A stretch of DNA of 64,000 nucleotides, taken from Tubulanus polymorphus. Lineage: Eukaryota > Nemertea > Palaeonemertea > Tubulaniformes > Tubulanidae. The translations under genes were made by a program, and so were the position numbers. The notes under the pieces are model-generated. The model was given only the letters and a program-made list of their open reading frames with translations, was not told the origin of the DNA and searched no databases. Location of the stretch: NCBI RefSeq assembly GCF_964204645.1, contig NC_134029.1, forward strand, positions 1,249,001 to 1,313,000, given 5' to 3'. This document shows, in pieces, positions 27,839 to 64,000 of the stretch (positions are counted from its first letter, which is position 1; each line of letters starts with the position of its first letter).

Positions 27839-28862
27839 CTGAATAAATGCTGATGCATATACAATCAGTTACTGACAGGGAACCTATTCGTTTTTCTATA
27901 AGTTGTTTTCGTATGCATGAATCGTGTAAGTATAAACATCATTTACATTTTCCCGTTATATTTCTACGCGTAGAAATATGTGTTCTTTTCGATAACCACA
28001 CTGTATAGGTAGGTATCTCGAGTCTACCATACTAGGGAATTCATATTTGGCTTATGCATTTTTTTTGGAAGAGACATATTTGCCATTGGACTACGCTTAT
28101 ACTTTAAGGTAATCTTGCGCTGAAAAGTCCCTAGTAGCCTATATACAGGATCAGACACATAAAGTAAAGTAGCTTTCTTGCGTGTATATTTTCCGATTCA
28201 ATTCTAGTAGTTTGTTTTTAACTGATATTAAGCCTCTACCAACAGTAACGCAACGAGACGATAAGCTGTGTGTCTATCTATCAGTGCAATTTCATACGTG
28301 GCTTACTTGTTTATACGTGTATATTTTGTCATTCAATTCTTTTGCTTTGTTTCATTGGGAGAATTTCTTTCACGTGTTTGACTTGTATTAAACTACACTT
28401 TAATGTGTCTGTCCACTATCTGAATATCAAAAACCTTTAGCTAGGAAGAGAAACGAGTGGCGTTGTTTCCACCGATGCTATGATCGCTTTACAAAACTGA
28501 AACAGGTTTTCGAAATGTCTCATTGAAGAGCAACGAGACAAGACTATTGTGTCTGTCCGTTATCTGAATATTAAAAACCTTCAATCAGGAAGAGAAACGA
28601 GTGACGTTGTTTCCAAATCGATGCTATGAGCTTTTTTACAATACTGAAACAGGTTTTCGAAATGTCTCATTGAGTTGAGTCGAAACGCTAAGCGAAAATA
28701 TACTCGTAGGTGCATCTTAATTGTGGGGTTTTTTTAAGACCACCGTCCGTTACGTTGACTCAACTACGTATTAAGAAGACACATATTGACTGTATTTGGT
28801 TAATGAAACAAATTCTATTGAATTCTCGTTTTATTTTCCAGAATTGATAACAGGAATGCGCG

Positions 28863-31971: not shown

Positions 31972-34900
31972 TCACACCTGATTCAACATGGCCGCCAATA
32001 ATTCATACTGAAAATAAAACAATTCATTATACGTACTACATTTAGAAAGATACCATTCATAACTTTAAAATTTATTGTAGAAAAACAGGTAAAAAAGAAC
32101 AGCGAATTCATTGCTTAATTCGTCGTAGGTGTGCGAATCATTTTTTTGACAACTCATCCAAATTACGACTTACAACTAGCAAATTGAATTATAAATCCAA
32201 ATTGGGATTCCAGAAACTTATCAAAATGAGAACTAAAGCGAGTTTGACCTCAACATTGTAGCGAATATTTACCTCTTTCTGCTTTTCTTGTTCTTCATGA
32301 ATCAATTCATCCAGAACGTCTTGGAATCTTTGCTGAAACACAAACACAACATTCAATAAATTTCCGACGATTGAATTTCTAAATGAGATTCAGCGAATTC
32401 TATTATTACCCGTAAAGCCAGATTATCAATGGCTGAGATTTCTGCCTCTTGTTTCTGGCGCTGTTCTTTTAATTCTTGAAGCTGTTGACCCAATTCTGAC
32501 AATTTCATCTCCAACTCAGCTACGGAAAAACAAAGAAATAAATCTGTTTTAAAATCATTTCTTACGGATTAAGAATTTCAGATTCGTGTTTATGATTCTT
32601 ACTGTTATCGACCGACATTTGTGATACATCGAGGTCGTCAGTTTGTGGAACGGTTTCATCTCTTACAGCCCCTCCTCCTTCTTCATCATCTTCACTATCC
32701 ATAATATTCACATCTTTATCATCATCTTCCTCTTCACTACTGCTCACTTCACCGAATATATGCTCAGCTATGGAAACAAATGGACATTAATAATAAAACT
32801 CGAGAATGAACCAAAGGAGTTAAGATCCCTAGAACTCAATTCGGATCTTTTGACTTGAGAGTGATATCTGAGTTTGATCGTACAGTAGACTCCGCTCAAG
32901 TCTGATCTTTTGACTTGAGAGTGATATCTGAGTTGGATGGTACAGTAGACTCCGCTCAAGTCTGATCTTTTGACTTGAGAGTGATATCTGAGTTTGATGA
33001 TACAGTAGACTCCGCTCAAGTCTGATCTTTTGACTTGAGAGTGATATCTGAGTTGGATGGTACAGTAGACTCCGCTCAAGTCTGATCTTTTGACTTGAGA
33101 GTGATATCTGAGTTTGATGATACAGTAGACTCCGCTCAAGTCTGATCTTTTGACTTGAGAGTGATATCTGAGTTTGATGATACAGTAGACTCCGCTCAAG
33201 TCTGATCTTTTGACTTGAGAGTGATATCTGAGTTTGATGATACAGTAGACTCCGCTCAAGTCTGATCTTTTGACTTGAGAGTAATATCTAAGTTTGATGA
33301 CACAGAAGACTCCGCTCAAGTCTGATCTTTTGACTTGAGGGTTATATCTGAGTTGGATGGTACAGTAGACTCCGCTCAAGTCTGATCTTTTGACTTGAGA
33401 GTTATATCTGAGTTGGATGGTACAGTAGACTCTGCTCAAGTCAGATCTTTTGACTTGAGAGTTATATCTGAGTTGGATGATACAGTAGGAAAAAATAAGT
33501 CCGGCTTGAGAACTTCATGTTTTGTTGGTCGAGCTGATAAGATCTGATTGGAGCAGAGTCTATTGAAGCAGTGATTAGTATATTTTACCGAGGTTAGTGC
33601 TGCTGTCAGCGTGAGATATTACACTCGGTTCATTCGTTGTTTCTCCTTTTAATCTTTCACCGGGAGCCGAATCATCGTCATAAATTATTTCCCATTTAAC
33701 ATCAATAGCTTCGTTATCAGCGCGGAATAAACGCTTCACTTCCTTCTCAATATCCGGCTGTTCTGTGTACTAGAAACAATAATCAGTGAAAATACTGCGA
33801 TAGAGAGGAGGGTGGCATTATTACCCAAATAAACTGAAGGGACACATCATTACGGTATCCAGGCAAACTGACATCATTCAAATAAACATCATAAGTAAAT
33901 TACCACATGAAAATCCCATTAAAACTTACATTTTTCTGTAGAGTTTTTCTGAATCGTTTTTTTCTGACGTTTTTTAGGGGTGGAGTAACTGAAATAATAA
34001 CAGTATGTTTAATACAGAGAGCGTACTGTGCAGGTACACGGTGTACTACTGTGCAGGTACATGGTGTACTACTGTGCAGGTATAAGGTGTACTACTGTGC
34101 AGGTACACGGTGTACTACTGTGCAGGTACACGGTATACAACTGTGCAGGTACACGGTGTACTACTGTGCAGGTACACGGTGTACTACTGTGCAGGTACAC
34201 GGTGTACTACTGTGTACCCGGTAGGTACACGGTGTACTACTGTGCAGGTACACGGTGTACTACTGTGCAGGTACACGGTGTACTACTGTGTACCCGGTAG
34301 GTACACGGTGTACAACTGTGCAGGTACACGGTGTACTACTGTGCAGGTACACGGTGTACTACTGTGCAGGTACACGGTGTACTACTGTGTACCCAGTAGG
34401 TACACGGTGTACTACTGTGTACCCAGTAGGTACACGGTGTACTACTGTGCAGGTACACGGTGTACTACTGTGTACCCGGTAGGTACACAGTGTACTTCTG
34501 TGTAACCGGTAGGTACACGGTGTACTACTGCGCAGGTACACCGTGTACTACTGTGCAGGTACACGGTGTGCGTGGTGTTCTATAGGCCTAATACTGACGT
34601 CCGTGAGGATAGCGAAATTTTCTATCTTTATCTTTGTCTTTTTTCGATTGAGTTTCTTCATCAGCGCTGTCACTTGTATCAGCATCTTCTTTACACAATA
34701 ACATCTAAAACACAAACACACACGTACATTAAACACTTGATCCAGTTTCACAGTTCAGGAATCATCCGAGGTTTTAAATCGGTTCATTAGTCAAATTTCA
34801 ACCCAGAAAATTCTGTGGATCTAGGTCCTGAATATATCAGTGATTTCAATATTTACCTGGCAAATATCAGCAGTTTTATAAAATGTTTTTTTATCCGTGG

Positions 34901-42297: not shown

Positions 42298-45200
42298 TCA
42301 ATGATTTGAATACGTGCGAAATACTGATTCTCGTGATTGACTATCGTGCAGTAATACTGTATCTGAGACTTGAAGACTAGAATCATCATCATCATCATCA
42401 TTGAAATAATCGCGGAACTCTCGCTGCTCTGGAGCGCCCCCTACAGTCATGGCAGCATCTTTACGAACTGTCGGTAGATTCCTCCACGTTATATTCATAT
42501 CTTTAAACGCTTGTAGCAGAAATATCCCGGCGATGATCGTGAAAAAACCACTCAAATTACCGACGATATCTAAAATGCTGAGGCGTCCCCATTCTTTAAA
42601 CAAAATGGCCGACGCTAGCATTACGAATACGTTGAATATAACGTATAAAATCGGAGTTACGACCGAAGTGTTGAAAATATCGAGAGCTTTGTTGAGATAG
42701 TTCATCTGAACCGTTATACAGAATACGACCTGCAGTAGAATGAGCCAGGTTAACCAGTTTGTAAACTGCTGATTGCCATGTACTGTTTGCATTATGGCGA
42801 CTCCTAATCCCTTACACGCCATCACCGATAGAGATCCGATCGAACCCGATATCGTCAGATAGATCAGAGGATTCGTCTGCCCGAATTTGGGCGCGAGCCA
42901 AAAAATCAGCAGGACGTTTCCAAATACGATCGCGATCGCGTAAACTATAAATGCTGAAACAAGATTTAGATATGAAATTAGAAACAGATCACAAAAACTG
43001 TGGCAGAATTATCCAGCTTTTGTCCATTTCAAGTTTGCATGAGAGGACGTCTACCCCATCCATTCAAAGAAGACTTTTGGCAAACCTTCAATACAATGTA
43101 AAATGGATTAAAGTGGATTAAAAACAGACATTATAGTTCATCTGCCCGTCTGTGCTGGTCCTATTAAGAACTTTATGAGGTCTTTCTGTATGTACCACTA
43201 ATACTGACCGAGCTAGGCCACTCAATGTCCTCTAAAGCAAAGTTGAAATAGACATTATAATTGAAAGTATATTTCACACGGTAGACTCTGTTTACCCTGC
43301 AGTGGATTGCCTCGAATTATCACGAGCCCCGTCTGATAATATATCACAAATTGTCCTGCTTGTGCTTAAAACTCACCGATATCTTTCATTTTTTCGGCTA
43401 ACTCATACATGCTGTTGATTTCGGGTTCTTTAGGAGCATGTATGACGACGACAGTTGATCCCAGTATACAAACAGCGCAACCGACTTTACCCAATAAATT
43501 CAATCGTTCGTTGAGAAAATACGACGATAAAATGGCGCTGAAAAAAATAAACAACATTTCAACATCAGTCGTTGGAATGACAGGAAGAGAGATGAGATTT
43601 CCATTCGTAACTCGCGCTTACCTGACGAGAACGCTGAGAGCTCCGAGAGTTGTGACTAAAGTCGCCGGAGCGAACGCGAATGCGGCGAAATTAAACCCTT
43701 CACCGGCTCCCACTGAAATAATAAACACGAACATCGATCCAATCAGCACCGTGACAACAGACTCACCTTTACTCGTTAGCAGTCAAAAAACTGATCAATT
43801 CTTACATGCATTTTACTATCATTTATTATATCATTGGAAAAACTTTCTTTTTCCCTGATTGTCAATAATGTAATCAGTCAACTCAACTCTGCTGATTAGA
43901 GCAGAGTTTAATGCGTTGAAATTCAACTCACTCAGTAATAGGCCAGCCCACCACATCCATTCTTTCAAGTATCCATGGCCCCCAGCACCTGAAATATATC
44001 AATATCGTTCTAAATGATAATCGAATAAGTGCATTTTATCAGCACAAAAACGAATCTAGAATTCATAGAACAAGTTTGAATGTCTGTCTGAAAGGTGGTT
44101 TCAAATCACCAGTCAAACACGCCTTAATAAATTCATCATCGTTGTGACCCTGGTTCCCACAGTTAGATGAATTCAAAATTCCCAAGTTTTTCCCAAGTAT
44201 TTCATGGGTGAATTTTCAATTTTCCCAAATGGAAATGAACACATATCGTCATTCAACAGTCAACATTTTAGCGGTGATTGGTTTATCGATTTTTATGTTG
44301 ATGAAAATAGAGATGGCTTCGGTAATGTGAATATTCGATAATGATTTAAAAGCAGGTACCTGCTCTTGATCCATGTTTGGCTAAACGAAGTAAACCTTTC
44401 TTCTTCAATATAAAACTGGATCCTATGAATATCGTTGATAAAACTGCTAAGAAGAGACCGATGTAGAAATGTCTTTGGGCATCAGGATTGTCAAATTCCA
44501 TATCAATAGTTGAATTATCAGATGATGATGAATTCGTGGAATTTTCACTAGGTTCAACCTGAATCATAGTAAACAATTCATAGTTAGTTTCTTGTAACAA
44601 TTTTTGATTCTTTATAAGTAAGAACAGGGCTGGATTCATGGAGACAGTTTGCTGAAAAGGGCAGATTGTTTAAAAAGGCAGAAATCCACGTTGGGTGAGT
44701 TCCGCCGAGAGGAAACCAAAATGGCGGTCTGAAAATTTAGCCGGGAAGGGGACAGGGGAGCAGTTGCCCCATAAATTTTGGAAAGTGTCCTTTTTGCAAA
44801 TATAATTGTTATATCCTACAGAACTGCCCTTTTTCGGGTTTCTCTGCCCTACCCCTCTATAATTCAAATGCTAGGTATGGTCCTGTTCAGTGACAATAAA
44901 GAGTCACTAACTAAAATTGTCCAAAAAAAATTGCCATTGTTTGGGTGCAACTTGTGTATGAGGTGAAGTGACTAATAAAAAATATAATATTTGCCAAGGA
45001 GTGAATATTGACTTAACGAAGGTTAATATTTACTTTTCATTTACACAATGAGCAAAGAATAAATACCAGGTTCTCTTCTAACATAGATTTTACCCTATGC
45101 ATATATTAATGTAAACCAAACATTCTGCTAAGTGACCTATTCCTATTTTTCATTTCAATGTTATGACGTTTTTAACTTTTTACTGCAACTCGAACAACTG

Positions 45201-46603: not shown

Positions 46604-46689
<86 letters not shown>

Positions 46690-46691
46690 GG

Positions 46692-46767
<76 letters not shown>
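46600..46767. repeat. (GAT)n trinucleotide microsatellite
   Basis: About 55 trinucleotide units of GAT, interrupted once by a GGT run at about 46676-46692. Open on the minus strand as poly-Ile/Thr, which is not a gene. Confidence 0.98.
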
Positions 46768-48162
46768 ATAAACTACCGGTACCCTTCTTCCGGGTTTCTC
46801 AACATTTAAATTCAAATGACCCTGCAGTAAAAGCTTCTTGTTGAAAAGGGCAGAAATATGTGACGTTTGTGCGATTAAATGTCTGATACTTACAATTTGT
46901 CTCTCTTCAACAGCTACAGGAACAATAAATTAGATGAATTGAGCGGACACCGGGGGCTGACTGCTGAATTAAAATATAAAAATATGCATTACATGGGTAA
47001 CAGAAAGAGCTGACTGATATTTATCACACATAGCCTAATAGCAGCCATTGTTTAAGGGAAATTATTCAGTAATCTGTTGGTGGTTTAGTTTCGCGACGGA
47101 TATTTTCACATAAGCCCATCAAAAGCTTACCAATGATTAGTCAACTAACTAGTATCTAGCAGGTGTTCCTGAAACCAGGGGAACCTAACCCCGGGGAAGG
47201 TGGGCAAATCAGACGGCAGTACGGTTAGTTACCAGCCCGGGCCAATTGCTCAAAGGTTGGTTCAAGATAACAGCTGATAAACACTAGTGGTAACTCTAAC
47301 TAATCTTTGAGAAACTACTTGTCCTGCTGGTTACTGACTCACTGTCTGTTGCTGTGTTGTGTGTCAGGGGACCAGTGTTCTGATAGGGTCCTCCTAATTA
47401 CCGAGATGATGCAATTTACCGAGATGAAATGAAGTGGGCCTATAGCATTTTTGTTAATTTCTTAACCGTTTTAACACTTGAAATCATGTTATATCAGTAA
47501 TAAATACCTTCTCGAGTCATATTTTACGTATTTTGCCAGATATTTTGTAGAAAAAATATTGACTTCAAGTTCATCATCTGGGTTACCAATAAATTCCGTT
47601 GAATTTGATTCTGATACGCTTTTTATTAAGGATTACAGAAGAACATTGTGCCAAGCTCTTATAGTGTTCAAGCAGAACTTTCGAATTTGTGATACAATGA
47701 TTTGAAGACTACCTGCGTCTGAAGTGAGGTGTGAGGAGTGTCATATACAAACCCGGAACCGAACTGACTGAGGTTTGTGATCTTTGTTTTGTTTTCGATT
47801 CCGATGTAAACACGAATAAACATATTCTCATCATTTCCAAGTAGTCTAATAAGTAGCTACTACACTAACATTCATAGACGCTAAACTTACTGTATAAAAA
47901 CGAGGTAATTAATTCAGATTATATCAAACTTTCGCCTTTCTTAACGCAAGAGGCTATATTTCTAGAGAAGGGACAACCGATAAATATGGAAAGCTGTCTC
48001 TTACAGAGGTGACTGAAGTGGCAATAAAGAATTGAATTGAATTGTCCTCTGAGTCTGAGTTCGAGTTCCTCTAATCGGATTGACCCTGACAATTAAAAAT
48101 CAATTAATTACACAGTGCCTATCTAATTCATGAATCATTTAGATTTTATTTAGTTATAGGAT

Positions 48163-48373
48163 AATGCCTGAGGCTTTATTTAACCGTTTAAAGGACTATT
48201 ATGTGGACAGCACAACATGCCTACTGCGACAATCATATCTATCTTATTCTTATTGTTATATTAAAGTAAAATGTTTATGTCTTGTAAATACTACTTGTAA
48301 ATATCACTCTGTACATCTCGACCCGAAAGGTGTGTATCAGTATAATAAAGAGTTTATTGAATTGAATTGAACT
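48163..48373 (+). mobile_element. LINE-like 3' end with ATTGA tail
   Basis: Non-coding segment ending AATAAAGAGTTTATTGAATTGAATTGAAC. Tails of (TTGAA)n are typical of some non-LTR retrotransposons. A shorter similar tail ends at about 48046. Confidence 0.4.
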
Positions 48374-48448
48374 GAATATTCGATACAGTCGCGAGGAAAT
48401 AGTAAACAACTTCGTTATATAAGAAAAATACTTCCGCGTTTGGTTTCA

Positions 48449-49386
48449 ATGTCGAATCAACAGCAGAAACTGATATATCTGAGGGGCTGGAGATATACAG
48501 CACTTGTCGGAGGATTGATTGGGTTAATAGGAACTGCTATGTATTTCACAGCTGTTGATCCGTACATCAACCCCAATAAATGGCGTAAGTTTTCTAAAAA
48601 AGTACTAATGTCTATTTATTAATTGATGAGACCTGTTTTTCTTGGATATTTTGCTTACTTTTTGGGGTACATACCTCATTTATGTCTTAACAGAATGCCA
48701 AAAATCGCGGACAACAACTGAATATCCGATATATTTCCAGTTCTGTACCAATTAGATGGATTGGCAAAAAGACTCCTTAAGTCCAGTTGAATGAGAGAGA
48801 AAATCCTCCATTTTGTCAAATTTCTTGGATTTGAACATTGTTACCATGCCTACGCCACCCTGATTTAGTTGTTGAGACCCCACAAGAAAAATAACTTCAT
48901 TTCGTAGGCATGGTGACAATGTAAAAATTCAAGAAATTTGACAAAATGGAGGATTTTCTCTCTCATTCAACTGGACTTAAGGAGTCTTTTTGCCAATCCA
49001 TCTAATTGGTACAGAACTGGAAATATATCGGATATTCAGTTGTTGTCCGCGATTTTTGGCATTCTGTTAAGACATAAATGAGGTATGTACCCCAAAAAGT
49101 AAGCAAAATATCCCAGAAAAACAGGTCTCATCAATTAATAAATAGACATTAGTTTTGACCTGACGGTGGCAGCACCTATCGGTAACGCGTTTTTTGTCTA
49201 ATTGTACTAGGATCAGTACAGAAAATTACTAGAAGAGATATCGATCAAGATGAAATACAGCCTGGAGGTAATTTGAATTGTAAAATTGATCATAAATGAT
49301 TTTCTTTGGTTTTGTCGTGTAAACGGTCTTGTTTTCTTAACACAGGAATGAGAGTCTGGAGTGATCCATTTCGAAAGAGAGAATGA
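48449..49386 (+). CDS. SMIM20: SMIM20 / MITRAC7 orthologue, cytochrome c oxidase assembly factor
   Basis: Exons 48449-48584, 49211-49267, 49346-49386; phases 1 and 1 close and give 77 aa (human 67). A single helix at about 17-34 (TALVGGLIGLIGTAMYFTAV) corresponds to the human [20 protein letters not shown] segment. The C-terminus reads GMRVWSDPFRKRE, matching the hallmark LKVWSDPFGRK ending. Between them, the stretch ITRRDIDQDEIQPG resembles RAGIVQEDVQPPG. In mammals the protein sits in the inner mitochondrial membrane, binds newly made COX1 and stabilises the MITRAC assembly intermediate; the vertebrate protein is also proposed as phoenixin precursor. Start chosen at ATG 48449 because it leads directly into the helix. 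Intron 1 (48585-49210) is almost entirely an inverted repeat, so the pre-mRNA should fold into a 250-bp hairpin between exons 1 and 2. Confidence 0.92.
48604..49153. repeat. 251-bp near-perfect inverted repeat inside SMIM20 intron 1
   Basis: Arms 48604-48854 and 48903-49153 are reverse complements with only a few mismatches; the loop is about 48 bp. Neither arm has a long ORF. It may be a foldback element or two head-to-head copies of one short element. Confidence 0.95.
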
Positions 49387-49657
49387 AGGAATCGTAAATT
49401 GAATTCAGCTATATCAGTAGTTTATTCATTGTGTGTTAGCAAAAAACGATTTTTTTGTAATTTTTTTCATGTAAATAAAAATGTACATAGTGATAGCATA
49501 TAATTGTAATGTTCTGCTGACTGTAGTTCTTCTGATTAGTTGGAGAGTGCCTGGATGTTTGGATAGAGAAAAGCATCAAACCAACAACAAAAAAACGATA
49601 TTCTTAGTATGGACTTTCCTAAATTTACACGATGATGTACCGTCTAATCCAGTATGG

Positions 49658-49796
49658 AAGCCCCTAGGTGACATGGGATAATTTTTTTCACAATTTCGAC
49701 TTATTATGTCAAATTTCGAGATAATAAGTCGAAATTTGACATAATAAGTCGAAATTGTGAAAAAATTATCTCGTACATGTCACCTAGGGGCTTTCG
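49658..49796. mobile_element. Palindromic MITE-like element
   Basis: About 139 bp, almost fully self-complementary, with ends AAGCCCCTAGGTGACATG and CATGTCACCTAGGGGCTTT and a core of repeated AATTTCGACTTATTATGTC. Lies about 270 bp downstream of SMIM20. Non-coding. Confidence 0.8.
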
Positions 49797-50252
49797 TAAG
49801 TACCGGTATCAAAATTAAAGGAAATAATGTGCTTTTCAAATGAATTAGGAGTGGCAAGCATGAAGTTTCTGGCGGGATTTCGGATGATGCTTCAAGTAAT
49901 TAAAAACAGCCTAATATGTCTCCCGGCCTCATCAATGGAATCAGGGAAGTGTCTCTCATTATACACTTCCCTAATTGAACCAAGAAGTTTTTTTAATTGA
50001 AAACTCGGGATCTCCGTGATAACCGTATGAATGATGATTAATCACGAGATGGTAGTGCCAGGGTTTTCCCTAATGACTCAAATAGCACTTTCCACGTGCA
50101 TGGTGTGAACTACACGTTTTTTTACCAGGCGGCGGCTAAATTCGGAGAGGGAAGCTGTTGGGAATCAAGTAATTTATTTTATGGCCTTAATAAAGTTCCA
50201 CGATATTGTATAGCTGGCTACACTGGCGCGTATTCAACCCAGTGGAACCTTC

Positions 50253-50260
50253 TATATAAG
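50253..50260 (+). promoter_or_regulatory. TATA box of the candidate tandem-exon transcript
   Basis: TATATAAG, with a likely start of transcription about 25-30 bp downstream near 50285. It precedes the exon-like array at 51.4-54.5 kb and an ATG at 50411 that opens a hydrophobic leader-like stretch (MLPWILLLAIFAALPLLLLF). Confidence 0.35.
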
Positions 50261-50619
50261 CTCTCAATGTAAATCCATTCCATAGAGACACAATTGCGGC
50301 TATTCAGAGTTGTTGATATCATTTATACGGGCTATTGAATACGTCACCGGCTGACCACGGTGTACACAAGCATAGACCATTCACCTCCGCTCTCTCACAC
50401 TGTGCAGACATGCTACCGTGGATTCTCCTCCTGGCGATTTTCGCTGCGCTCCCGCTCCTGCTCCTGTTCCTGCTTCCTGAGGAACGACGTCTTTATGTTT
50501 TATGTGTTACTGTTCGTCTCTGTGCTGTCCTGTACTGTTCCGTGTTTATTAACCCGTTCTTTTTTGCAGGTTCTAACCCGTTTTATTTTTCAGGGCCGAT
50601 TTCTCTGTCGAATTTCAAT

Positions 50620-50800
50620 GTTTTCAGGAACAAAACTAATGTCCGAAAGCGTCGGCTCTCCTTCGCCGGTCACGTCTCGAGGATGTCAGACAAAGAGTCG
50701 GTCAGGAAATTCTGCCCTCTACGCGCCCTCATACGGAACACGAAAACCAGGATGACGAGGCCTCACTGCCCCCACCTATCTGCAAAGTGTGCTGAGTGAT
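50620..50800 (+). mobile_element. LINE reverse-transcriptase C-terminal fragment
   Basis: Reads RRLSFAGHVSRMSDKESVRK, the pattern that follows the RT domain at the C-terminus of RTE/Jockey-type non-LTR elements (xLxxAGHxxR). It is truncated; the RT core is absent. An inverted relative lies at 51230-51405. Confidence 0.6.
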
Positions 50801-51229
50801 GTCAATGACGGGCATATCTGTGAGATTGCACGGGATACAAATGGAGCGGTTATACTGGATTGTCACGCTACTAGCATTCATTGTGTCCTTGTGACCGCCC
50901 GGATGAGGGATGATTCTACTGTCACGCTCTTTGTTTCTGGTATTCTGAGTCGGCTGAGGGATGATTCTACTGTCACGCTCTTTGATTTCTAGTTTGAGTG
51001 CTAGTTTTCATTGTGTCCTTGTGACAACCCCGGTCAGTGGATGAAGTCTCTTGTCGGCTTGTGAGTGTTAGTTTCATTGTGTCCTTGTGACAACCCGGTC
51101 AGTGGATGAAGTCTCTTGTCACGCTTTTGAGTGCTAGTTGAGATCCTGAATCTCAACCCGGTCAAGCTGGTTGTACTGCGCTATTTGTGTTTCGTGCAAT
51201 TTTACAGGTGTGTCCGTTTCTGACGTCGC

Positions 51230-51405
51230 CCAGTACATCCTGCAGTTAGATGGGGAATGTGAGGCGTCGTCATCCTGGTTTTCGCATTCTGTGTGAGGGC
51301 GTGTAGAGGGCAGTATATTCCTGGCTGGCTCTTTGTCTGGTGTTCTCGGCATGTGACCGGCGACGGAGAGCTGAAAAGCTTTCGAACATTAGTTTTGTTC
51401 CGTAC
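51230..51405 (-). mobile_element. Inverted LINE C-terminal fragment
   Basis: Minus-strand copy of the element at 50620-50800 (LSVAGHMPRTPDKEPARNIL), diverged by substitutions and small indels. The two together form an inverted pair separated by about 430 bp. Confidence 0.6.
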
Positions 51406-54400
51406 CAGGTTTTCATCGCTCTTCTCTTTTTTTTTCATTTCAGGACTCCCAAGAAGTTGAAGAAGAAGATGGTAGAAGGCGACTACAGAAGATGCCGAAA
51501 AAAGAATAGTGAACTCCGCAATCTTGAAAGTTAAGTTGATTCACATATAAATTAGGATTAATGATGAAGAAATGTGTGACTACAAAATGTTTTTCTTTTT
51601 CTCAATTTCAGCTTCGACGACACCCAAGAAGACAAAGAAGTACTTCGATTTTGAAAAAAGATTAAGTAAAATCGACCGACGATCACGCAACTATATCTGT
51701 ACTTCGATTTCCAAAAAAAATTAGACAAAATTATCTTCATCCTTGTAAACTTTTGGACTACTTATATGAAAAAAAAGACCAAATATTGTAAAATTATCGA
51801 AAAAAAATGATGTAAATTCGACCGACGATCACATAACTATATCTGTACTTCGATTCCCGCCTGTTTCGCTCCTGGCAGGTGTATCACGATCGTAAGGGAC
51901 ACCAACTCAAAAGTCAAACGCGAGCTCATCAACTAAGATCTGCCGATTAGAGAACAGTGCACAGAAGGGGCCAATTTGGATGAAACTCAACCAACCAACT
52001 TAGGAGATCCTCCGATAATGAACCCAGCCATCATAAAAGGTAATTTGATATTTGATACGAACTTAGAACATTTTAACCGATACTGAACCCAGCAAACTTG
52101 AAATGTGATTGGCTGTTTGTTGGATATTCCGGAAATTCCGGGAACTTCTGATGTAATTGGGAAAGCCCATTGGGAAAACCCAATGTGGAACCCAAAACAA
52201 AATGGCGAGCATTTCATTCGACTAGGTATCGTATCGTAGGCTATTCTAGGTATATTATTTATGGAAATTATTATGATAAATTCTAAATGAAATATTTTGT
52301 CATTACAGGATATCTTCTTTTAATCATTGCAGCTTAATTTAAACTATAAGAAAAAAACCCAGCTTGAGATCAACTACTCGTCCAAAATCGACCAACTGGA
52401 ACAGCGCACAGATGAGGCCAGCTAACTAACCAACTAATAGGATAATCCCCGATAACCAAGCAATCATAAAAGGTAACTTGATATACATGGAATTATTTCG
52501 ATAAATTCTAAATGAAATATTTTGTCATTACAGGATATCTTCTTTTAATCATTGCAGCTAAATTTCAACTATAAGAAAAAACCCAGCTTGAGATCAACTC
52601 CTCTTCCAAAATCGACCAACTGGAACAGCGCACAGATGAGGCCAACTAACTGACCAACTAATAGGATAATCGCCAATAACCAAGCAATCATAAAAGGTAA
52701 CTTGATATACATGGAATTATTTCGATAAATTCTAAATGAAATATTTTGTCATTACAGGATATCTTCTTTTAATCATTGCAGCTAAATTTCAACAATGAGA
52801 AAAACCCAGTTTGAGATCAACTACTCATCCAAAATCGACCAACTGGAACAGGGCACAGATGAGGCCAATTAGAATCCAACTTTTCAACCAACAAACTTAA
52901 GATGATCCACGCCAATAACGAACCAAGCAATCATTAAAGGTAACTTGATATACATGAAATTATTTTGATTAATTCTAAATGAAATATTTTGTCATTACAG
53001 GATATCTTCTTTTAATCATTGCAGCTAAATTTCAACTATGAGAAAAACCCAGTTTGAGATCAACTACTCGTCCAAAATCGACCAACTGGAACAGGGCACA
53101 GATGAGGCCAACTAACTAACCAACTAATAGGATAATTGCTGATAACCAAGCAATCATAAAAGGTAACTTGATATACATGGAATTATTTCGATAAATTCTA
53201 AATGAAATAGTTTTCATTACAGGATATCTTCTTTTAATCATTGCAGCTAAATTTCAACTATAAGAAAAAACCCAGCTAAATTCAAACTCGTCCAAAATCG
53301 AAAAGCACAGATGAGGCCAACTAGAATCCAACTTATCAACAAACAAACTTAAGATGATCCACGCCGATTATGGACAAAGCAATCATTAAAGGTAACTTGA
53401 TATACATGGAATTATTTCGATAAATTCTAAATGAAATATTTTTTTCATTACAGGATATCTTCTTTTAATCATTGCAGCTAAATTTCAACAATGAGAAAAA
53501 CCCAGTTTGAGATCAACTACTCGTCCAAAATCGACCAACTGGAACAGGGCACAGATGAGGCCAACTAACTAACAAACTAATAAGATAATCGCTGATAACG
53601 ACCCAAGCATAAAAGGTAACTGGATATATGTGGAATTATGTCGATAAATTCTAAATGAATTCAACTATAAGAAAAAACCCAGCTTGAGATCAACTACTCG
53701 TCCAAAATCTACAAACTGGAACGGTGCACAGAAAAGATCAGAACTGAACCCAGCAATCTTTAAAGGTAAGTTGATATACATGAAATTACCTGTATATAGA
53801 AATTTCAGTCCTCATATGAACATCATTTCATAAGTGGCTATCATCAAAATCTATTTACCGGTCCACATGGCTGAACTTTTATCTTCACTAGTCTTAAACA
53901 GTGATGAACTAGTCCTACTACTGCAATTAATTATTGGGGTTTAAATCAGCAATTGACGTCAATGAATTTTACTTTGTGAAAAACAGGGTGGCTTGTAATT
54001 TTAAATGACATGTAAATTATGATAAATCTGTCTGAAATGTTTTGCTTTCTTCACTAATTTGTTTCAGCCAAACTACATCTCGGAAAAATTGGCCTGAAGA
54101 AGACACTCACAAGTAGATGAATACTGATCGACCCATTTTTAGAAGTTGAGGAGCCAGCAACGGATTAATCACTTAACGATGGATTCTTCTACAATCGGTG
54201 GTTGATTTCTATAAAACATTTTATCAGGAGCAGCAGAGACAAAAGTGTATCTTATAAACATTGATTCGAGCAGCAAAACTAATGGATTATTTCATAAACA
54301 CTGGATTCAGGATAAACATTTTTCTAAAAGCAGCTAAGACAATAGTGTATCTTATCAGGAGCAGCATAAACAATTGTGCATCTTATAAACAGTGAGATCC

Positions 54401-54565
54401 AGGAGCAGCGAAGACGATAGTGGACTTCTGAAGTAAAGACAGTATTGATTTTTTTTTACTTACCACCCTTTTTCGAACCAGTATGATGGATAATAAAGCG
54501 TATTTGAGGAAACTATTTTATGATGTGTTATGCAATGTGAGAGTCTAATAAAAGCTAAGCTCCAT

Positions 54566-56475
54566 TAATTCACGATATTGGTATTCGATCCTTGGTTAAT
54601 AGACGAGTCAATTTAGGTTAGTGACTAGGGGTAAATGGTCGCGTCGAGCGCCTAGTTTGGACTCGTAGGTCTGTTGAGTTAACTCCTCAACTGAGATATA
54701 GTTTCAACATGATATTGTGAGTTTAATCTTCGTGCTTACCATAGTTAAACAAAGTTAACCTTACGCTTTCCAGAGTGAGTGAATTTGTAGCTTAATGTTT
54801 TTATTTTGAACTGTTTTTAAATAACTCATTTTAGCAGGGTATAATTGTGTAAGAATAAAACGACATACACGTTCGTAGGATCTTCCAGTTTGAATTTGTG
54901 GTTTTTATGTTGGAGACTTTTTTGAACTGAGGGACTTCCTCGAGTACATAAATACCTGTCATTTAGGTATAAATATTGTTGCGGGGATAAAACGACATGT
55001 TCATGTCAATTATTCATAAAACACTGATTTATTCAGGTCCTATCGAATAAAGTTGAGCTTTGACAATTGAGATCTCAATCTCGATGTCATTTGAAAAGTT
55101 GACATGATAGATTCATATTTCATGAAATATAACAAAGTGTCGGTTATATTGACCTCATGAATTGTCAAATTCATAAGCTTAGACTTTCAGACTAGTCCAA
55201 CTTTCGGTGTTTTATGGATCAAAGTTTACAATTGTGTATTTTTATTTTCCTATTGATGCAAATTGTATAAATCAGCTGTAGTGGAAATGTATCGTAGATA
55301 AAGACTTCTAAATACCTTCAAAATCGACCAAGCTTTCAACTTTATGCAGTCGCCATCTATCCACGTTATCGTAACTAATACGTCAATGATCAAAGAAGTC
55401 CCACAATTGGAATTTTATATGAAATAATTTATTTAAACGTAACCACAACGTTTCGGCTAGTGGCTAACGGCCATCATCGGGTGGAATGAACAGAAAACAA
55501 GTAACGCAGCATATAAACTTACAGGACATAAACGAAAGCGATGTAAACAGCGAGAACGACTGTAAACCGAACAAGTGACAATTTAGTCTAGCACGGTACC
55601 TAGCTGTCGTTCCCCAAACACCTACGGGCTGAGCCGGTCACAACGACTGGTATTCAGACTAAAATGAAAACAACCAGGGGTGTACTGTAGAAACCACAAA
55701 TATTCTATGAACAGTTCACATCGAATACAAATTATGTAACTAAGTGAAGTAGACTGGGGGAGTAGAAGAGGGCGGGATAGATGCAGCGTGACATTTACCA
55801 AAATCTAGTAGAGTTGATATAATTTAATAGATAATAATTGATTTTGTGGAGATGGTAGATATTAAGCTGGATTTCGAAAGTTTACAAATAAGGGCTGATT
55901 AATCCACTATGTGTCTCTTATGGGTGTCTTCACATGGATAAATGAGTTTCGAACTCGGAGTCAAATTCTAAATGCGAAAGTCCATAAAAAGCCCCTCTCA
56001 TAAAAAACGAAGATTTGCAGTCAGTTATATCATTGGAATAAATCCTTTATTCATATCTCTCCCTAGGAGACCAGCTCCTAATGGTTAACAGTACATCTAC
56101 AAACTAAATCTACAATTTTACATCATTTCACTGATATCAATGCGACGTATGTTCATAATAAATGCATAAAATGAAAACACCTCAAATAGGCGTGCTTACT
56201 TTCATTCCTATATAAAATATGATTACATGTATCATCTAAATTTGTAAATGATTGATTAAAAAAAAAGATTCATTTAATTTATTAAAATGGAATGTTACAA
56301 TTCGAATGGCTGATTATAGGTAAATAACGCCAGGGTTTATAAAACGTTTAAAGATAATACAGATTAAGCAGACACGGCTGGAGTAGACCGGACCTGCAGA
56401 CACGGCTGGAGTAGACCGGACCTGCAGACACGGCTGGAGTAGACCGGACCTGCAGACACGAAAGTCCATCATAGC
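54566..56475. other. Intergenic stretch
   Basis: No gene. Contains a Penelope-like terminal motif at 55430-55490 and a 28-bp tandem repeat (three copies of AGACACGGCTGGAGTAGACC plus CGGACCTGC) at 56370-56460, which ends about 16 bp past the PIBF1 stop and may lie in its 3' UTR. Confidence 0.55.
55430..55490. mobile_element. Penelope-like element terminal motif
   Basis: The run AACCACAACGTTTCGGCTAG, then TGGCTAACGGCCATCATCGG, matches the style of the conserved end of Penelope-like retroelements (ACGTTTCGGC...CCATCATC). No GIY-YIG or RT frame is attached. Confidence 0.5.
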
Positions 56476-59400
56476 TCATGAATGACTGATACCGTACGCA
56501 CTGCTATATTTGCCTGTTGTCGCTCCCCTCCCCTGCTTCAGTTTCTCAAACCACTTCGGATTTTCCTGATTCGTCTGAAATGAGAATAACGCGATATCAA
56601 TTCATCACATTACAGGATAAACCTGCATTTCACGTCGCGTGATGACGATCGATCAATGCTCTGACAGCCCTGGCGAGCGTACAGACGAGAACGCACCACA
56701 GATTAGACTTACAAATAATGTCGCTCCTGGCTTATGAACATTTTCATCTTGAAACGTGGTATGTTTTTTGGTAGATCTCGCTGATCTCGGTGTAGTGGAT
56801 TTAGAATGCGGTGAACTACCGCTCAACTGCTGTTGACTCATATTCAATACAACTTGTTTCATTACAGCCATTTCCTGAAATAATACGTCAGTTACAACAG
56901 ACTGGGTAGACTGAGCAGCCCTGAACCACTCCTGCAGCTCTTCAGACATTCACCAATGTAGTATTTAAGCGTGGACGATCAGTTTTTTAGCCGATAAGTC
57001 TAGTGTTTAGTTGATACCTGTTTTTGATTTAGCAATCTCTCCAGATCAGCTGCCATCGTGTTACGCATTTTTGTCAGTTCCGATTTATCTTTTTCTAAAC
57101 GTCTATAAAAACCAGAAACAAACGTCGATCAGAAAGTAGTCCTTTCAAACATTTCATAAAATTGAAATAGAGACAGATATTTTACTCGATATCTTCAGTC
57201 ATCGTGTGAATTTGATCTTTCTGCGTCTTCATTTGTTGATCTCTCAATCTGATGCTGTCTATCAGGTAATTATACGGCTGTTGAGCGTTGTCCAGAATGT
57301 TATTCGTGTTCTTCAACTGAAGCAGATAAAATCACAAATATTGATAAGCAGCAGAAAGGACTGAAGGCTTATATAGAAGTATATCGTACGAATTACACGT
57401 TTTCGCGAACCTCTTCGGCGAGTTGTTGAACTTTAGCTTTCTCACGATCTATCTCTTTCTGTAATGATGAATTAGCTCTTTCCAGTTGTAGAACTCTACG
57501 CGCTAACTGAACGCTAAAATAACCAAACACACAATTATTTAAGTAAAAACACCAAGTAAAATGTTTCAGAAATGAGTGAATTCAGGCCGCGACCGGTTCC
57601 TTAATCTACCTTTGTTTCAGTCTTCGTTTAGTCGTACTGGGAACATTAGCTCCATAGCCGTAAGAAAACAGAACTCTTTCAGCTTCTTGTTCATTTTCAA
57701 CTGAAAAATACAGCAGCATTTTAATCAAAAATTAGCACAATTCACCGATTCTTCTATCACAGCGAAACAGCAAATTTACTTTCAGCCGATTGCATGACGA
57801 CATCATCCAGTTCCTGTTCTAATTTCTCATAAGTATCGAGCTTCGAAGATTTTTCCGAGAGTTGAGATTCTAAATCGGTGATTTTACGTTCGGTAGTAGT
57901 TTGTAGCGCGTAATACTCTTTAGTCAGAGCCTACAGTAAAAACATTCGATATTAAATCACTTCAAAGGACCCAGTTCCGAAGTTAGTGGTTAAATTTGAC
58001 TCACAGCCTCTCAACTCAGCCTTAGAGTCAAATTAAACCCAAAAAGTCAGCGTCACTGGTTCCTGTCTGTGGAACTTGAATCAAATCGCTACAAACCTCA
58101 GTTTTTTTCTGCAATTTCTCGTTTTCGATTTGACATTCTTTCAGATGTTTCACGGTTTCCTCGTAAACCATCTGCGTGCGTTCCAACTCAAACGATTTGA
58201 TTTTCAAATCATTTTGAACCTCGGATAATTTGTTGTCTCCGCTGATTTGCAGTTGACGGAAACTATACGAAATAAATCAGAAATATAATCGATACTTATA
58301 AACTTTAAAATCAGAATTCTAGACACACGGGACGGAATTACAATTCTACACTCACTCTGACATCAACTGTTCGTATTTATTCGACGCTTCTTTCTCAGAC
58401 ATTTGAGCGCGATCTTTTTCGGACGTGGCTAAATCTCGCGCTTCTCTAAGATTCCTAACAATCACAACAACAACAAGGAATACAACCGATTAAATCAACA
58501 ATAGTATAATTGAAACGATAAAATTCTCAGACGAAAAATCATAACTAGATTAGGAAACAGTACGTTTTTCATTTTTGTCAAAATTAAGATTTTAAATTTG
58601 AAACTGCATGTAGAGAGAATCCCACAATGACAAGGAAAAAGTCCGAAAATGTAACTTTGGGATAGTAGTTTATTCAACGTTTCGACTATATCGTAATAGT
58701 CATCTTCAGGAATACTGTATTCCTTGAGCTAGTGTAGTTTATTCAACGTTTCGACTATATCCTAATAGTCATCTTCAGGAATAATGAGATACAACAAAAT
58801 TTATGAGATATATATATATACAATCCATAGACAAAGAGACTAATTCAAGTAATCAGAGATGATATCACTCCTGAAGGAACTTGACTTTACTTTTGGCAGT
58901 CCTGGATTTGATATAGCATTTCTCATAATTTCGGAAGCTGGCGATGAGGTACCCAATGTGAAGAAGAAGAATTTGAAACTGCATACTACAGTATGGACGT
59001 TACTGTGTAGTGTTTGTTGTAGGGGAAGTAGAAGGTTTATAGTTTATACCTGTTTTCTCTTTCATACATCTCTCTTGTACTCGTTTTCAAACGATCGATT
59101 TCGTTTTCAGTTCGAACGCGAATCGTATTCAATTCTTCTTGTAATTTAATCTCGTATTCAGATTTATATTGTTCCCTACAAAATCGAAATAAACTCGAGT
59201 CAATTTAAAACACGTATCGAAATCTCTTAGAGCGCCGTGAAGATTCGTGGTTTCTATTCCTCGATGCAGGGCGAGACAAATGAAGAACCATTAACCATGA
59301 AACTGTGCCGCCACGAGGATCCATCAAAACATAGATTAATGAGACCTGGGGATCATTCATTTAATACGTACGCATAAAATTTGAATTTTTCAATCCCCCT

Positions 59401-61925
59401 CTTTACGCAAAATCGGCCATTTTTTCATATGCATTAAGCATTACAGTACGCAATTGCACTGAACCCTCCCACCTCCCCTAATGCGTACGTAATAAATGAA
59501 TGACCCCTGACCAGTACTCAGTGAGGACACGATGATTTTGTACCTCGAGCTGACGTATCTTTCATACATTTCTTCGCGTGCCTTCTTCGCCAGATCGATC
59601 TCAGACGTCAGTGTTTGTATGCGATCGTCGCCGTACATCACGCGGTTCTGTAGTTCGTTTACTTGTTTCGATAAATAATCTTTATCCTGAGTAATCATCG
59701 CTAACGAATGTTTTAAACTCGTTATCTGTAAACAAAAACAACAAATATTTGAATACATTAAAATCATTCATAATGTTCCACAGTTCTCGCTGTGTTCTTA
59801 CAGACCCGGGAATCTAAGATTCCCTAAAATATCCCAGACTTTTGTCCAAAAACATCCTGATTAAATTATAATATATCCTCACTGAGGGCTGTTTCTTATC
59901 AAGAGTATCCTTGTGTCACTCGTCACCAGCAACAACAAGTCATCAAATTCTCTAATATTTCCTCCAGGGAAACTCCAGAATTCCCTGATCTGTAAGATTC
60001 CATATTAAGTTTGACAATTAGATTCCTGCTGTTATTGTTCTATACCTCTTTGTATTGTTCGTCTCTTTCTTTAACCGCAGTTTGATAGGAAGCGTCTAGG
60101 AACGCGTGGTTCTGTTTCAACGTAACCAGATCTTGTTCGTACGTGTCTCGATCTCTATCGAAAATATATCAATATTTCATTATGAAATAGCTGAATTGAA
60201 ACGTAGGGGTTAAAACTCCGGAACTCTAGAGGTTGATGCGAGATAGAAACAAACAGCTCCTGGCTCCAGTTTTGTAGGCGTTCAGGCTTTACTTACTGTT
60301 TCACCTGGTCGTAATTCTCAATTCTAAAATCCCCGTATTGAACTTGGGATTTCGTATCGGCGAGTTCGAGCGTTAATTTCTGATGTTCAGTTTGAAGTTC
60401 TGAGTAGAGTTTTCGTTCCTGGTGTAAATTCTACAAAACGTTGAAGAATTAAAGGTTAGATTTAACAACATCTATGATTTAGATTGGTTAGGTTTGAATA
60501 CAACTGACCTGATGACACGTATCCAAATCATCGGTTGTTTTCTTTAAATCATCGGCTAATAAATCGCAATGATTCTTTATGGTTTCACTGAGCGTCTTTA
60601 AAGGATTCACTTTTTCAAATATTTTCATCTAGACAAAGAAAAATATCGCATTCGAGTTAAAGAATCCGTTAACATTCATTCTAAATAACTTAAAAAGTTA
60701 AAAGTGTTTGAACTCATTTTGACCGTAGAGTAACTTTAACTTTTAGAAAACAAGTTCATCGTCGAATGCTTGAACTCGCTGATAATTGAAAGTGAACTGA
60801 TGTAATGAACGCCGGGGATTTAGATTATAAATTTACCGATACGAATTGTTTCAGCGATATTTCAGTTTCGTCCTGTAATTTCAACTCGTCGTATTCCGAT
60901 TCAGCGATCATCAGATCTCCGCGTAGAGTACGTCGGACGTTTCCCGCTCGTTCCGACAGTTTCTCGTTGGCGTCTTCGAGCGATCTCTGACGATCCATGA
61001 TCGATTCCATCTCGCGTCGGATCTGATCCTGTCTGTGTTTAGACTCGTCCTGAGTGATCTTCAATTGAGCCTCGAGTCGCGCTTGTAGAATCTGTTTTTG
61101 ATGTACAACGTCGGCTAACTGCTCCTGTTACAAATACAATAATAACAACAACAACATAGTCAGTGCTAGTCTCATGAATTATCTCAGCCCAACAGATCAG
61201 TTATTCTTTGATGTAAGGAGTTTTAAGGAGAATTTTTCATATCTCAAGGAAGCGTCTGCATCACCTTCATATCCCAGTTACAACGGACTCCTAAATCGCT
61301 ACAGTTTATCTCGGTAAACCATTAATTCAGTGGTTTTGTTAGCAAGTTTTTATCCTTAACACTATCTAAACTCAAGTTCGGTTAGTAATTTGGTAACCTC
61401 CTAATTGGGTAAAAAAATCCTGGTTCTGCCAGTAACGTTACTGATCTACCTAGGCGAAGCCTATTAGCTTCATTAGTAACTGCCTATTTCTGAAAATTTA
61501 AGGAGTTTCCAGCATTCTTAAAAGAATTTTCTGTTTAGAAGAAGTTGTAGGGATCCAGCAGCAGGTTTCACCTCTGGTTAGTATTTGACTCGGGTCATCC
61601 TTCAACCACCGACCGAGATGACACAATTTATTTTTACCTCCAATTCTTCCATTTTCTGCATGTGTTCAGCCTTCATATTATCGATTACCAGCGTTTTCTG
61701 AGACAATTCAATCTTTAACAGCTGTAAATCGTGAGAAAGTTGTTTCTTTTCGAGGAGTTGTTTAGTAATTCGACTCTTACGATCTCTCCTCCTGGCTCCG
61801 GGATCGCTGGTTTCATCGGGTGACAGTGTGAAATCAGTGATCGGTTCACTCGTCTCTAAACCCGTTAAATCGCCTTCAGTTTCAAACTCTGTAAATGTTT
61901 TCGTGATTTCACCGCCTTCAGCCAT
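56476..61925 (-). CDS. PIBF1: Progesterone-induced-blocking factor 1 (PIBF1/CEP90), 16 exons
   Basis: Exons 61638-61925, 60837-61124, 60509-60628, 60297-60430, 60046-60154, 59544-59725, 59050-59175, 58356-58454, 58097-58262, 57780-57930, 57610-57700, 57411-57513, 57186-57316, 57018-57102, 56713-56874, 56476-56574; all phases close, 777 aa (human 757). Almost wholly coiled coil after an acidic 50-residue N-terminus. Landmarks shared with vertebrate PIBF1: [89 protein letters not shown], and [20 protein letters not shown] followed by [18 protein letters not shown]. The last exon encodes [10 protein letters not shown], like the human EAPEWSKKQK end. PIBF1/CEP90 is a centriolar satellite and distal-appendage factor needed for ciliogenesis. 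Exon 12 uses a weak donor (GAG|GTTCGC), chosen because it aligns without insertion. Confidence 0.96.
58660..58790. mobile_element. Duplicated Penelope-like terminal motif in PIBF1 intron 7
   Basis: Two direct copies of GTTTATTCAACGTTTCGACT followed by ATATC.TAATAGTCATCTTCAGGAATA, a typical Penelope-like element end. No coding region is attached. Confidence 0.5.
59348..59507. mobile_element. MITE-like element, ACGTACGCA family, copy 2
   Basis: Same inverted termini and internal sequence (AAAATCGGCCATTTTTTCAT) as the copy at 40967-41122, here inside PIBF1 intron 6. Confidence 0.8.
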
Positions 61926-64000
61926 GTTTTACAGATTCTAGCTTGCTTAAAATGGGTTAAAAATTATTGAAATCCGCGGAAAATAAAAGTAAAAAAGATG
62001 TTTGAATTTGGCACAGCGTCCAGTTGTAAATTGAGCGTACGCTTCTGTCGCCAGGCGCACTATTTAGCAAACAAAACCAATGAAACGAATATACAGACAA
62101 CGCGGTATCGGATGACGGTGCCGGACTGGCATCGGGACTCACCACGTTCCGAATTACGAAACGGAGTCTACATACATAATCGCGATTCAGCGTCCTCAAA
62201 TTAAAAGAAAATCTCTATATACATGTTACACAAATGCCAGCTGCTGGTAGAAGTTCGGCACATAAGTGTGGTGACCATCTTTTTGGTGTCGTTTCATCTC
62301 GCGGCCGCTTCTGAGTACTATGAATTATTCACTAAACGTGCTTTATCGAAAAAAGAAAAAAGAACAAATCATTCGAAAATAATCACATTAAATTTTTTCA
62401 GCTTTCCAAATGAATCAAAAGTAGCATAATTGTTTCGGATTCGTTGGATCGGGTAGTTGTATTTAAACAATGAGAAATGGTTTTTGTTATTTCCTGACGA
62501 GTGGCACTTCTATTGCTTAATGAATATTATAACATCATCAGCAGCAACAAAAAGCGGTTTTTTTCTCACTCACTCTCTCTCTCTATCTATCTCGGTCTCT
62601 CTCCTCTTGCTCTCTCTCTCTCTCTCTCTCCCTCTCTTCGGGTCGATAGCGCGTCAGTAAATCTATACATAACGCTACTGCTCGAGCGAGCGAGCGAGCG
62701 AGCGAGCGAAAAACATGCTGAGAATTACAGAGAACCACTGACGAAAAATTACATATTCTCTGTTCTTTAGAACACCGTTCACTGCGTCTAGAAAATCGTC
62801 GTCTAAGAATATGTTTGTCATCTCAATATGCACTGTTGCTGCTGATTTGTATTTATCCACACGTGGATTACGACTGTCGTAGATTTCAAATCGTAAGTAA
62901 AAAGTGAGTTCCACGTCACGTCTTTATGAGATTTTCTTGTTTGATTTGTGTGTGGACGATCGTGTTTAATTGCTCAATCTAACGACGTTTCTTTGCTGAT
63001 GAGATGTTAAGAAGTTAGGGGGAGGGGGAACATATTGCATTGCTCAATCCAGCGCAACTTTTCTTTAGTCAATAAAAACTCGACAAGATTGCCGATGCTA
63101 TCTTGCTATCTTCCATATGAAAGATCACTTTTCACATATAGAGTATTACAATTATATAGAAAACTGATCTTTAAACATCGCTTCATTGAAATTATCTACT
63201 TTTCATCAAGTACAAAATCCCATAGATTCATATGTTAGTGAATATTTCGTCTTCATACTTTCATACTGGATGTTGTGGAATGTTATAATTTTTCATCTGA
63301 CACAGGAACCGTGTTTAAGCTAAAACATTTTCATTGTTCACTCTTTCAATCTTTCATTCCTAACCGCACTTTCCTGATTACTGTAAGATTGCGGACCAAG
63401 TTCAGTGAGAATTACAGAATTAACTCCACGTTTCAGCTTTACACGAAAACTATACGCGAGGGAAACATAAACAGCTCTTATACAAATATTACCCGAGACT
63501 GTATGATATAACAACTGTATATGTTTGAACACGAGAGCTTAATGAGAACATGGTCTACCGTGATCAAACGTAATTCTCATTTTATAAAACGTGGCGTAAC
63601 TCGGAGGGATGTAGGAGAAACAGACCTGTTAGGGTAACTGTGTGTCCTCTAGGCACGAGGACGTGATGCTCACTCGGGTAATGCGAACATTAGATAAAAT
63701 ATCCCTAAAGACCGCATTGCTGATTACTCGCATTCGCGGCAATAAACTGAGACCAACGATAATACGTTCTAACTACGAAATGGTCACCGAAGATACATCA
63801 TTAACCATCTCTTCCTTCATGTCGAAGATTTATTTCTTCTTTTGTGCAGCCTCGTAACACTGGACCTCCTCCAGCCGCGAGGAATAGACAGTAATTTAGT
63901 ATGCACCATTATCGGGACGTGTCCGTCGCCGCCCGGCCGGCGGTATTGCTGTTCTTCGATGTGTACATGCCACCCGCCGATCGTTAATATGAACTAGGAA
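61926..64000. other. Intergenic stretch at the right edge
   Basis: No gene I can support. Contains a (TC)n run at about 62567-62635 and a (CGAG)n run at about 62684-62709. A 79-codon minus frame at 62675-62914 begins with protein-like ELTFYLRFEIYDSRNP but has no good splice sites. The last 150 bp are GC-rich. Confidence 0.5.

Follow-up and report, generated by a model that had tools for sequence, protein, structure and literature searches.

A tandem array of intron-plus-exon-like units in the genome of the nemertean Tubulanus polymorphus is, in our interpretation and with a probability of roughly 0.7, an internal satellite in one copy of a large, multi-copy host repeat family that is biased to distal regions, contains a gene-like unit and would have been copied at the DNA level. 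The array lies in a window of 64,000 nucleotides, the whole stretch of DNA analysed here (C5:1249001-1313000 of a 267.8-Mb genome in 77 contigs, on which the genome-wide searches were run); copies elsewhere in the genome are labelled L031-L055 and the window copy WIN. The array is real, and in our view it is mainly a matter of ordinary repeat biology and not a special gene.

Within the window, Tandem Repeats Finder (TRF) reported periods of 224 (score 1489), 243 (1285) and 453 (2062) over the array (52261-53765), whose units of 222-243 bp each consist of a spacer and an exon-like block. The same acceptor, ATCATTGCAG, precedes six exon starts (52333, 52558, 52782, 53025, 53247 and 53478), and donors in which AAAG directly precedes GTAACTTG place their GT at 52473, 52697, 52940, 53163 and 53392, with two donors further on (GTAACTGG at 53616 and GTAAGTTG at 53766) and one, GTAATTTG, ahead of the array at 52040. 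The five complete spacers measure 85, 85, 85, 84 and 86 nt and the six exon-like blocks 138-158 nt, each spacer starting with GTAACT and ending with CATTGCAG (TTGCAG). A first-pass annotation of this DNA had described at least six units with a common acceptor and donor, spacers of 84-86 nt, a repeat of 222-243 bp and a position between a TATA box and polyadenylation signals, all of which our measurements bear out (TATATAA at 50253-50259, AATAAA at 54547-54552). Its single acceptor per spacer is real, but a second AG lies 24 nt earlier, such that TCATTACAG (AG1) and ATCATTGCAG (AG2) occur together in all five spacers and in the stretch before 52333. Its final junction, put at 53615/54068, needs changing: a deletion has removed both AGs from the unit at 53616-53765, so that the last long spacer is better placed at 53766-54067 than at 53616-54067.

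Genome-wide searches revealed that neither the unit nor its surroundings are confined to the window, and that the 5-kb arrangement of 5' ORF, array and polyadenylation signal is repeated elsewhere as a single dispersed family. The 224-bp unit gave 314 matches (37 of 171 candidate regions scored), and a 23-base acceptor pattern with at most 3 mismatches gave 339 + 471 = 810, against 4 + 3 = 7 for the reversed control. Open reading frame 1 (ORF1), upstream of the array, recurred as DNA at 95-98% identity in 39 other places (best 40 of 304 candidates), as did the terminal block at the 3' end, with 81-91% identity (39 other places; best 40 of 190). A search with the ORF1 protein gave 151 matches (150 of 392 candidates scored; 150 rows listed). 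More than a hundred copies are spread over contigs C1-C12 and C55. Among 20 loci of 9.9 kb fetched from the best-scoring places, 13 (L031-L034, L039, L040, L042-L045, L047-L049) carry the ORF1 core, a long inverted repeat, the array and the 3' part in the same order as the window, at identities of mostly 80-97% with some pieces lower. Two loci (L037, L041) keep part of the 5' region with different sequence ahead of the array, L036 misses most of the 5' part, and four (L035, L038, L046, L050) have the array and 3' parts with ORF1 absent from the stretch read. The units stand head to tail with a constant period and high identity and are arrayed at many genomic places, as in a satellite. Among the readings proposed in the first-pass annotation, recent amplification fits, and so does the origin of a satellite from an exon-intron pair. 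The annotation had also held that many copies elsewhere would mark an ordinary satellite; the copies are there (314 and 810 matches), but the array is not a bare satellite, because other sequence of the family accompanies it in 20/20 fetched loci. A second tandem array, in steps of about 119-132 bp and built of sequence like window 51641-51776, was seen in L035 (367-1037), and in L037 (4034-4588) repeats related to it form an open frame, repetitive and 185 codons long. In L049 a run of N extends from about 8354 to 9901, beginning about 200 bases past the last window match (8140).

The arrays vary in composition: 127 unit matches in 21 places yielded 66 full units in 19 places, and both the number of units and the order of their two types, A and B, differ among arrays. 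Identity among A units was 0.938 within a locus and 0.934 between loci, compared with 0.932 and 0.900 for B units, and the higher within-locus value of the latter indicates some local homogenisation. For 55/66 units the nearest relative lies in another locus, so that most array structure is older than the spread of the copies or has been exchanged among them. Eleven loci each contain a unit, in many cases close to the array's 3' end, with a near-identical intron and a strongly diverged exon, a combination that exchange points located in the intron would be expected to produce. A good acceptor (TTTGCTCATTTCAG) is retained by this diverged unit, and one frame of its exon is open by eye in some copies, with a 12-13-nt duplication shifting the frame in at least four others. 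We delimited exons by a GTAA[C/G]T donor together with either of two spellings of the acceptor (n=85); 77/85 had no open frame among the three, whereas frame 0 was open in the other 8, in line with the earlier remark that most exon copies carry stops, and exon lengths modulo 3 (0/1/2) were 25/34/26. With so many closed exons and no symmetric phase, a protein running through the array as tandem coding exons is excluded.

The repeat family is biased to the distal regions of contigs, whose ends we treated as chromosome ends. Positions were counted for the 121/150 ORF1 protein rows whose contigs have a known length, or 119 copies after merging of fragments, with 29 rows on C8, C11, C12 and C55 left out. 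Of these copies, 71/119 lie less than 3 Mb from a contig end against 29.3 expected (p 5e-16), and only 3/119 fall in the middle 30% of contigs against 35.7 expected; the top-scoring 40 places of each search were also frequently near contig ends (25/29 for ORF1, 19/32 for the 3' end). Orientation toward contig ends was considered as a further feature and rejected, as 38/71 copies within 3 Mb point to the end; the earlier top-40 sets had given 17/25 (ORF1) and 7/19 (3' end).

Conservation of the splice signals was measured with a unit model that was first cut at the donor (GT intact in 202/202 cells, AG2 in 244/248, AG1 in 236/250) and then rotated to bring the intron to the center, because match edges could hide broken donors. 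The rotated model gave 162 matches, including 100 complete units, from all 21 places, and in the complete units GT was intact in 100/100, AG2 in 98/100 and AG1 in 91/100. By summed rates, 16 of 194 dinucleotides are conserved at least as well as GT, 37 as well as AG2 and 101 as well as AG1, such that AG1 is an average site and GT and AG2 lie within a conserved tail without being outstanding. Mean non-majority rates in these units were 8.4% for intron positions 7-40, 2.4% from there up to AG1, 4.7% from AG1 to AG2, 7.0% for the exon 5' part and 9.8% for the exon 3' end, in agreement with the proposal that spacers are conserved as well as exons or better. Over all 162 matches, of which 62 are partial, some of these being other parts of the repeat, the rates were 5.5%/0% (GT), 9.9%/9.2% (AG1) and 0.8%/6.1% (AG2). 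Judged from these sequences, the pattern suits AG2 as the acceptor and a real intron in the ancestor, with present-day splicing unproven. Two longer junction patterns for intronless (processed) copies had 0 matches genome-wide, which is weak evidence either way; a first junction pattern was useless for finding retrocopies, since the junction resembles the genomic acceptor.

We weighed these signals against readings in which the unit has a product. Selection on a splicing unit, as the first-pass annotation proposed, is weakly suggested by the intact GT (100/100) and AG2 (98/100), but 16 and 37 of the 194 dinucleotides do equally well or better. It is quite improbable, in our view, that the array belongs to a functional spliced non-coding RNA whose exons were serially duplicated and kept for the splicing of minimal introns: the better retention of AG2 than AG1, the kept branch-like CTAAAT and the good acceptor of the diverged unit would agree with it, but the TATA-like box is missing from the corresponding place in 5/13 other aligned copies (L033, L034, L044, L048, L049), the copies are numerous and variably truncated, folding is not unusual (z 0.03 for the intron, -1.13 for the exon), and no Rfam family reached its gathering score in the unit (two sub-threshold matches, E 3.5 and 4.9). 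A structured intron and an intronic snoRNA or other known RNA were rejected on these last values. Even further from what we would expect is a scheme in which every monomer would be a working minimal intron, more than 100 distal loci would be serially spliced, and selection against mis-splicing would keep GT and AG2 while AG1 decays. A microprotein gene had been suggested as well, and we hold it unlikely that ORF1 encodes a real membrane or secreted microprotein of a distal multigene family with the array as its decaying 3' untranslated part. For it speak the 138/150 listed protein rows without a stop in the aligned part (12 with a stop), including members at 55-71% identity, the higher identity of ORF1 (95-98%) than of the 3' end (81-91%) among the best 40 candidates scored in each search, and N-terminal length changes that, in the first 156 nt of 18 aligned copies, are multiples of three, but fall inside a CTC/CTG repeat. 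Substitutions nonetheless look near neutral. In the 13 close copies dN/dS was 0.69, with 45 nonsynonymous (N), 23 synonymous (S) and 0 stop changes among 68 variants against 45.7, 19.7 and 2.6 at random; the first 52 codons of 18 copies, five distant ones having been added, gave 40 N, 20 S and 0 stop against 40.6, 18.1 and 1.3. Pairwise omega over eight sequences (28 pairs) was 0.58-0.92 in 26/28, with extremes of 0.44 (L054-L055) and 1.22 (L031-L034) that both come from few changes, and change in the divergent set is near-equal across the three codon positions. Frames also shift without closing, as L054 and L055 show an apparent frameshift after about codon 53 and remain open, and of the 13 copies with an alignable start, all open for about 127-130 codons, four have a +1 at nucleotide 300 that moves reading into another open frame. 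A second frame has 0-2 stops in WIN, L031, L034 and L039 (4 in L049), so the openness of ORF1 is partly compositional. Purifying selection, which the few stops had brought into consideration, is not upheld by the codon counts; the stops (12/150 rows) are fewer than expected after long neutral decay, and we claim no protein. ORF1 matched no Pfam family at E 0.01 and nothing in PDB below E 0.9 (only matches at E 0.94-0.95); its second half presumably resembles the tail with which certain non-LTR reverse transcriptases end at the C-terminus.

A rival of a different kind, which we consider possible if on balance doubtful, takes the repeat for a giant transposable element (TE), possibly a non-autonomous one, that would be Helitron-like or a telomere-associated composite, would carry a promoter, an ORF and internal tandem repeats of its own and would depend on enzymes supplied from elsewhere. 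Its more than 100 copies on C1-C12 and C55 accord with this, as does a shared break: with window 49950-50300 as query, 37/38 other primary places begin at 50118-50137. A common start near 50126 was considered on this basis, but in 9/37 a second, weaker match lies separately further upstream and one place matches upstream only, so the break is frequent and not a proven end. L048 has an imperfect direct repeat at both edges (30 letters, 93%), but in a test for target duplications, run with exact 11-mers on 9 edge pairs (up to 200 bases away), it was the only one of 7 places with a flanking direct repeat. The 3' borders vary from copy to copy, no inverted copy of 55299-55318 as a terminal inverted repeat was found elsewhere in the window, and flanks are common to small groups of copies. 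Helitrons are marked by a 5' TC, a 3' CTRR with a hairpin and insertion between A and T, and their non-autonomous copies lack a helicase anyway. Pfam scans (six frames of L033 1600-9901, L050 and L043 1-1700; forward frames of L045 1-2000 and window 48000-57500) gave no transposase, helicase or reverse transcriptase (RT) domain at the cut-off, and no RepHel or helicase coding region, in these parts of four loci and the window; their only match above the cut-off was DUF4538, in a gene flanking the window copy. One minus-strand frame of L050 has a sub-cut-off match to HTH_Tnp_4, a transposase helix-turn-helix (E 0.0053; 16 residues; 16.8 bits, cut-off 27), which would point toward a TE; we take it to be probably due to chance, along with sub-cut-off matches to six ankyrin models in L043 (best E 0.0011) and to RE_ScaI (E 0.012), Orthopox_F8 (E 0.21) and DUF4131 (E 0.039) in L033. 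For a retrotransposon we found neither an intronless copy (0 with the two longer junction patterns) nor an RT domain in the scanned stretches. According to PMC12628747, Helitrons usually carry tandem arrays at their center, and there are loci in which arrays and element parts have been shuffled. A giant non-autonomous element and repeated chromosome-end exchange both fit the data.

The reading we favor remains the internal satellite of a DNA-copied repeat. The repeat would hold a gene-like unit, made up of ORF1, a region resembling a promoter, some exon-like blocks and a polyadenylation signal, and one of the intron-plus-exon pairs of this unit would have turned into a short satellite. Slippage between units, or unequal exchange, is the most likely way in which the array grew and still shrinks. 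The entire unit, introns included, would have been copied at the DNA level to far more than 100 loci, most of them in the outer megabases of contigs, in part perhaps through chromosome-end exchange. Its splice signals would be inherited and might still be usable, without selection for a product having kept them. Several observations weigh against this account: the local homogenisation of B units, the lack of orientation bias toward contig ends, the better retention of GT and AG2 than of AG1 (unexpected for a purely passive satellite), the open ORF1 in 138/150 rows with its in-frame N-terminal length changes, and the lack of clean outer ends among the copies, so that neither transposition nor segmental duplication is demonstrated.

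Table 1. Parts of the repeat copy in the window, with positions counted from the first letter of the window.
Feature	Position	Strand	Basis and remarks
Dispersed repeat copy	at least 49590..55318	+	Outer limits as seen; alignment with other loci
TATA-like box TATATAA	50253-50259	+	Window sequence
ORF1, 129 codons + TGA, hydrophobic N-terminus	50410..50799	+	Open reading frame; copies elsewhere
Long inverted repeat	50627..51401	.	Arms 50627-50850 and 51175-51401, ~77% complementary; other copies have it too
Exon-like block 1	51444..51529	+	Strong acceptor upstream, GTTAAG downstream
Exon-like block 2 (start)	51612..51730	+	Preceded by TTTTTCTCAATTTCAG; end uncertain
Length-difference junction	52102..52122	.	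~424-442 extra bases in other copies (e.g., L031, L032, L033, L034, L044, L045)
Tandem array of intron-plus-exon-like units, period 224/243	52261..53765	+	TRF; unit searches
Example spacer, 85 nt	52940..53024	+	GT donor, CTAAAT branch-like site, AG1 52999-53000, AG2 53023-53024
Last array unit, 150 nt	53616..53765	+	Both AGs lost in internal deletion
Terminal exon-like block	54068..54552	+	Ends at AATAAA 54547-54552; 39 other scored places
Length-difference junction	54753..54760	.	~1.3-2.2 kb more in several copies (e.g., L032, L034, L036, L038, L039, L045), then sequence matching 54753-55318

Around the array (Table 1), exon-like block 1 resembles the array exons at its 3' end, and L036 diverges right at the TATA-like box, with a TATAAA nearby. 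The left limit at 49590 is shared with L031 only among the fetched loci, whereas the core common to most scored copies begins at about 50118-50137, and homology to the window copy ends downstream at 55318, yet other copies run on past there. Directly 5' of the repeat copy stands the DUF4538 gene, a small one, in two exon pieces (48479-49269, +; E 2.6e-8 and 0.04, the latter piece being the next exon). An inverted repeat that is perfect over 37 nt and has a loop of 9 nt lies at 49683-49765, and its motif gives many overlapping matches in 20-base steps in L032. Window 55420-55620 is presumably similar to the 3' end of a Penelope-like element.

Elsewhere in the window, four rhodopsin-type G protein-coupled receptor genes stand close together as single open frames (13190-14149, +; 14654-15646, +; 19737-20843, -; 24479-25465, -), followed by a GT92 glycosyltransferase frame (28851-30224, +; E 2.9e-26) and an exon of a NIPA magnesium transporter (42301-43008, -; E 1.1e-50). 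Coiled-coil exons at 59441-61928 (-), one of them without a Pfam match, we take to resemble PIBF1. Simple repeats include a 60-bp minisatellite at 32768-33514 (-; 10.9 copies, 95% matches) with 248 codons open and 152 in a second minus frame, an array of a 23-bp unit at 34024-34569 with extra periods of 30, 53 and 76 that is partly open in three forward frames, and a long (ATG)n run at 46604-46767 (98% matches).

Compared with known systems, the repeat shares features with several. To our knowledge the family has no existing name, and an exon-intron pair is a less usual satellite monomer; a literature search for non-coding tandem exon arrays or exon-intron satellite monomers gave no matching case among the papers listed. 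Tandem exon duplications and the SNORD115/116 host genes likewise have repeated exon-intron units in one direction, non-coding exons and conserved introns, whereas here no snoRNA or other Rfam family reached its gathering score and the units are dispersed at more than 100 loci. Subtelomeric segmental duplications and multigene families have the same bias to outer megabases, ragged copy-specific ends and flanks common to small groups; in contrast, our repeat has no recognised gene, occurs internally too and lacks orientation bias. The Athena elements, or Terminons, of bdelloid rotifers are telomere-associated composite retroelements that tolerate introns. In PMC7943196, Terminons are unusual, much larger retroelements, such that distal composite repeats are known; ours is similarly large, composite and distal, but without a reverse transcriptase in the stretches scanned. 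With the central arrays of Helitrons, Helentrons and miniature inverted-repeat transposable elements (MITEs), as PMC12628747 presents them, it shares a short array within a larger dispersed unit, variable copy number and shuffling, but its monomer is an intron plus an exon with splice signals, and neither termini nor a helicase or transposase at the cut-off were found.

These results indicate that, within a dispersed repeat, an exon-intron pair can turn into a satellite and still retain its splice signals. They also advise caution, as a many-exon "gene" read off one window may be a repeat. Were the monomers spliced, hundreds of near-identical introns with single-position differences would form a natural test bed for minimal-intron function in this lineage, and were they working introns throughout, the satellite would be maintained by the spliceosome and not by its own DNA sequence.

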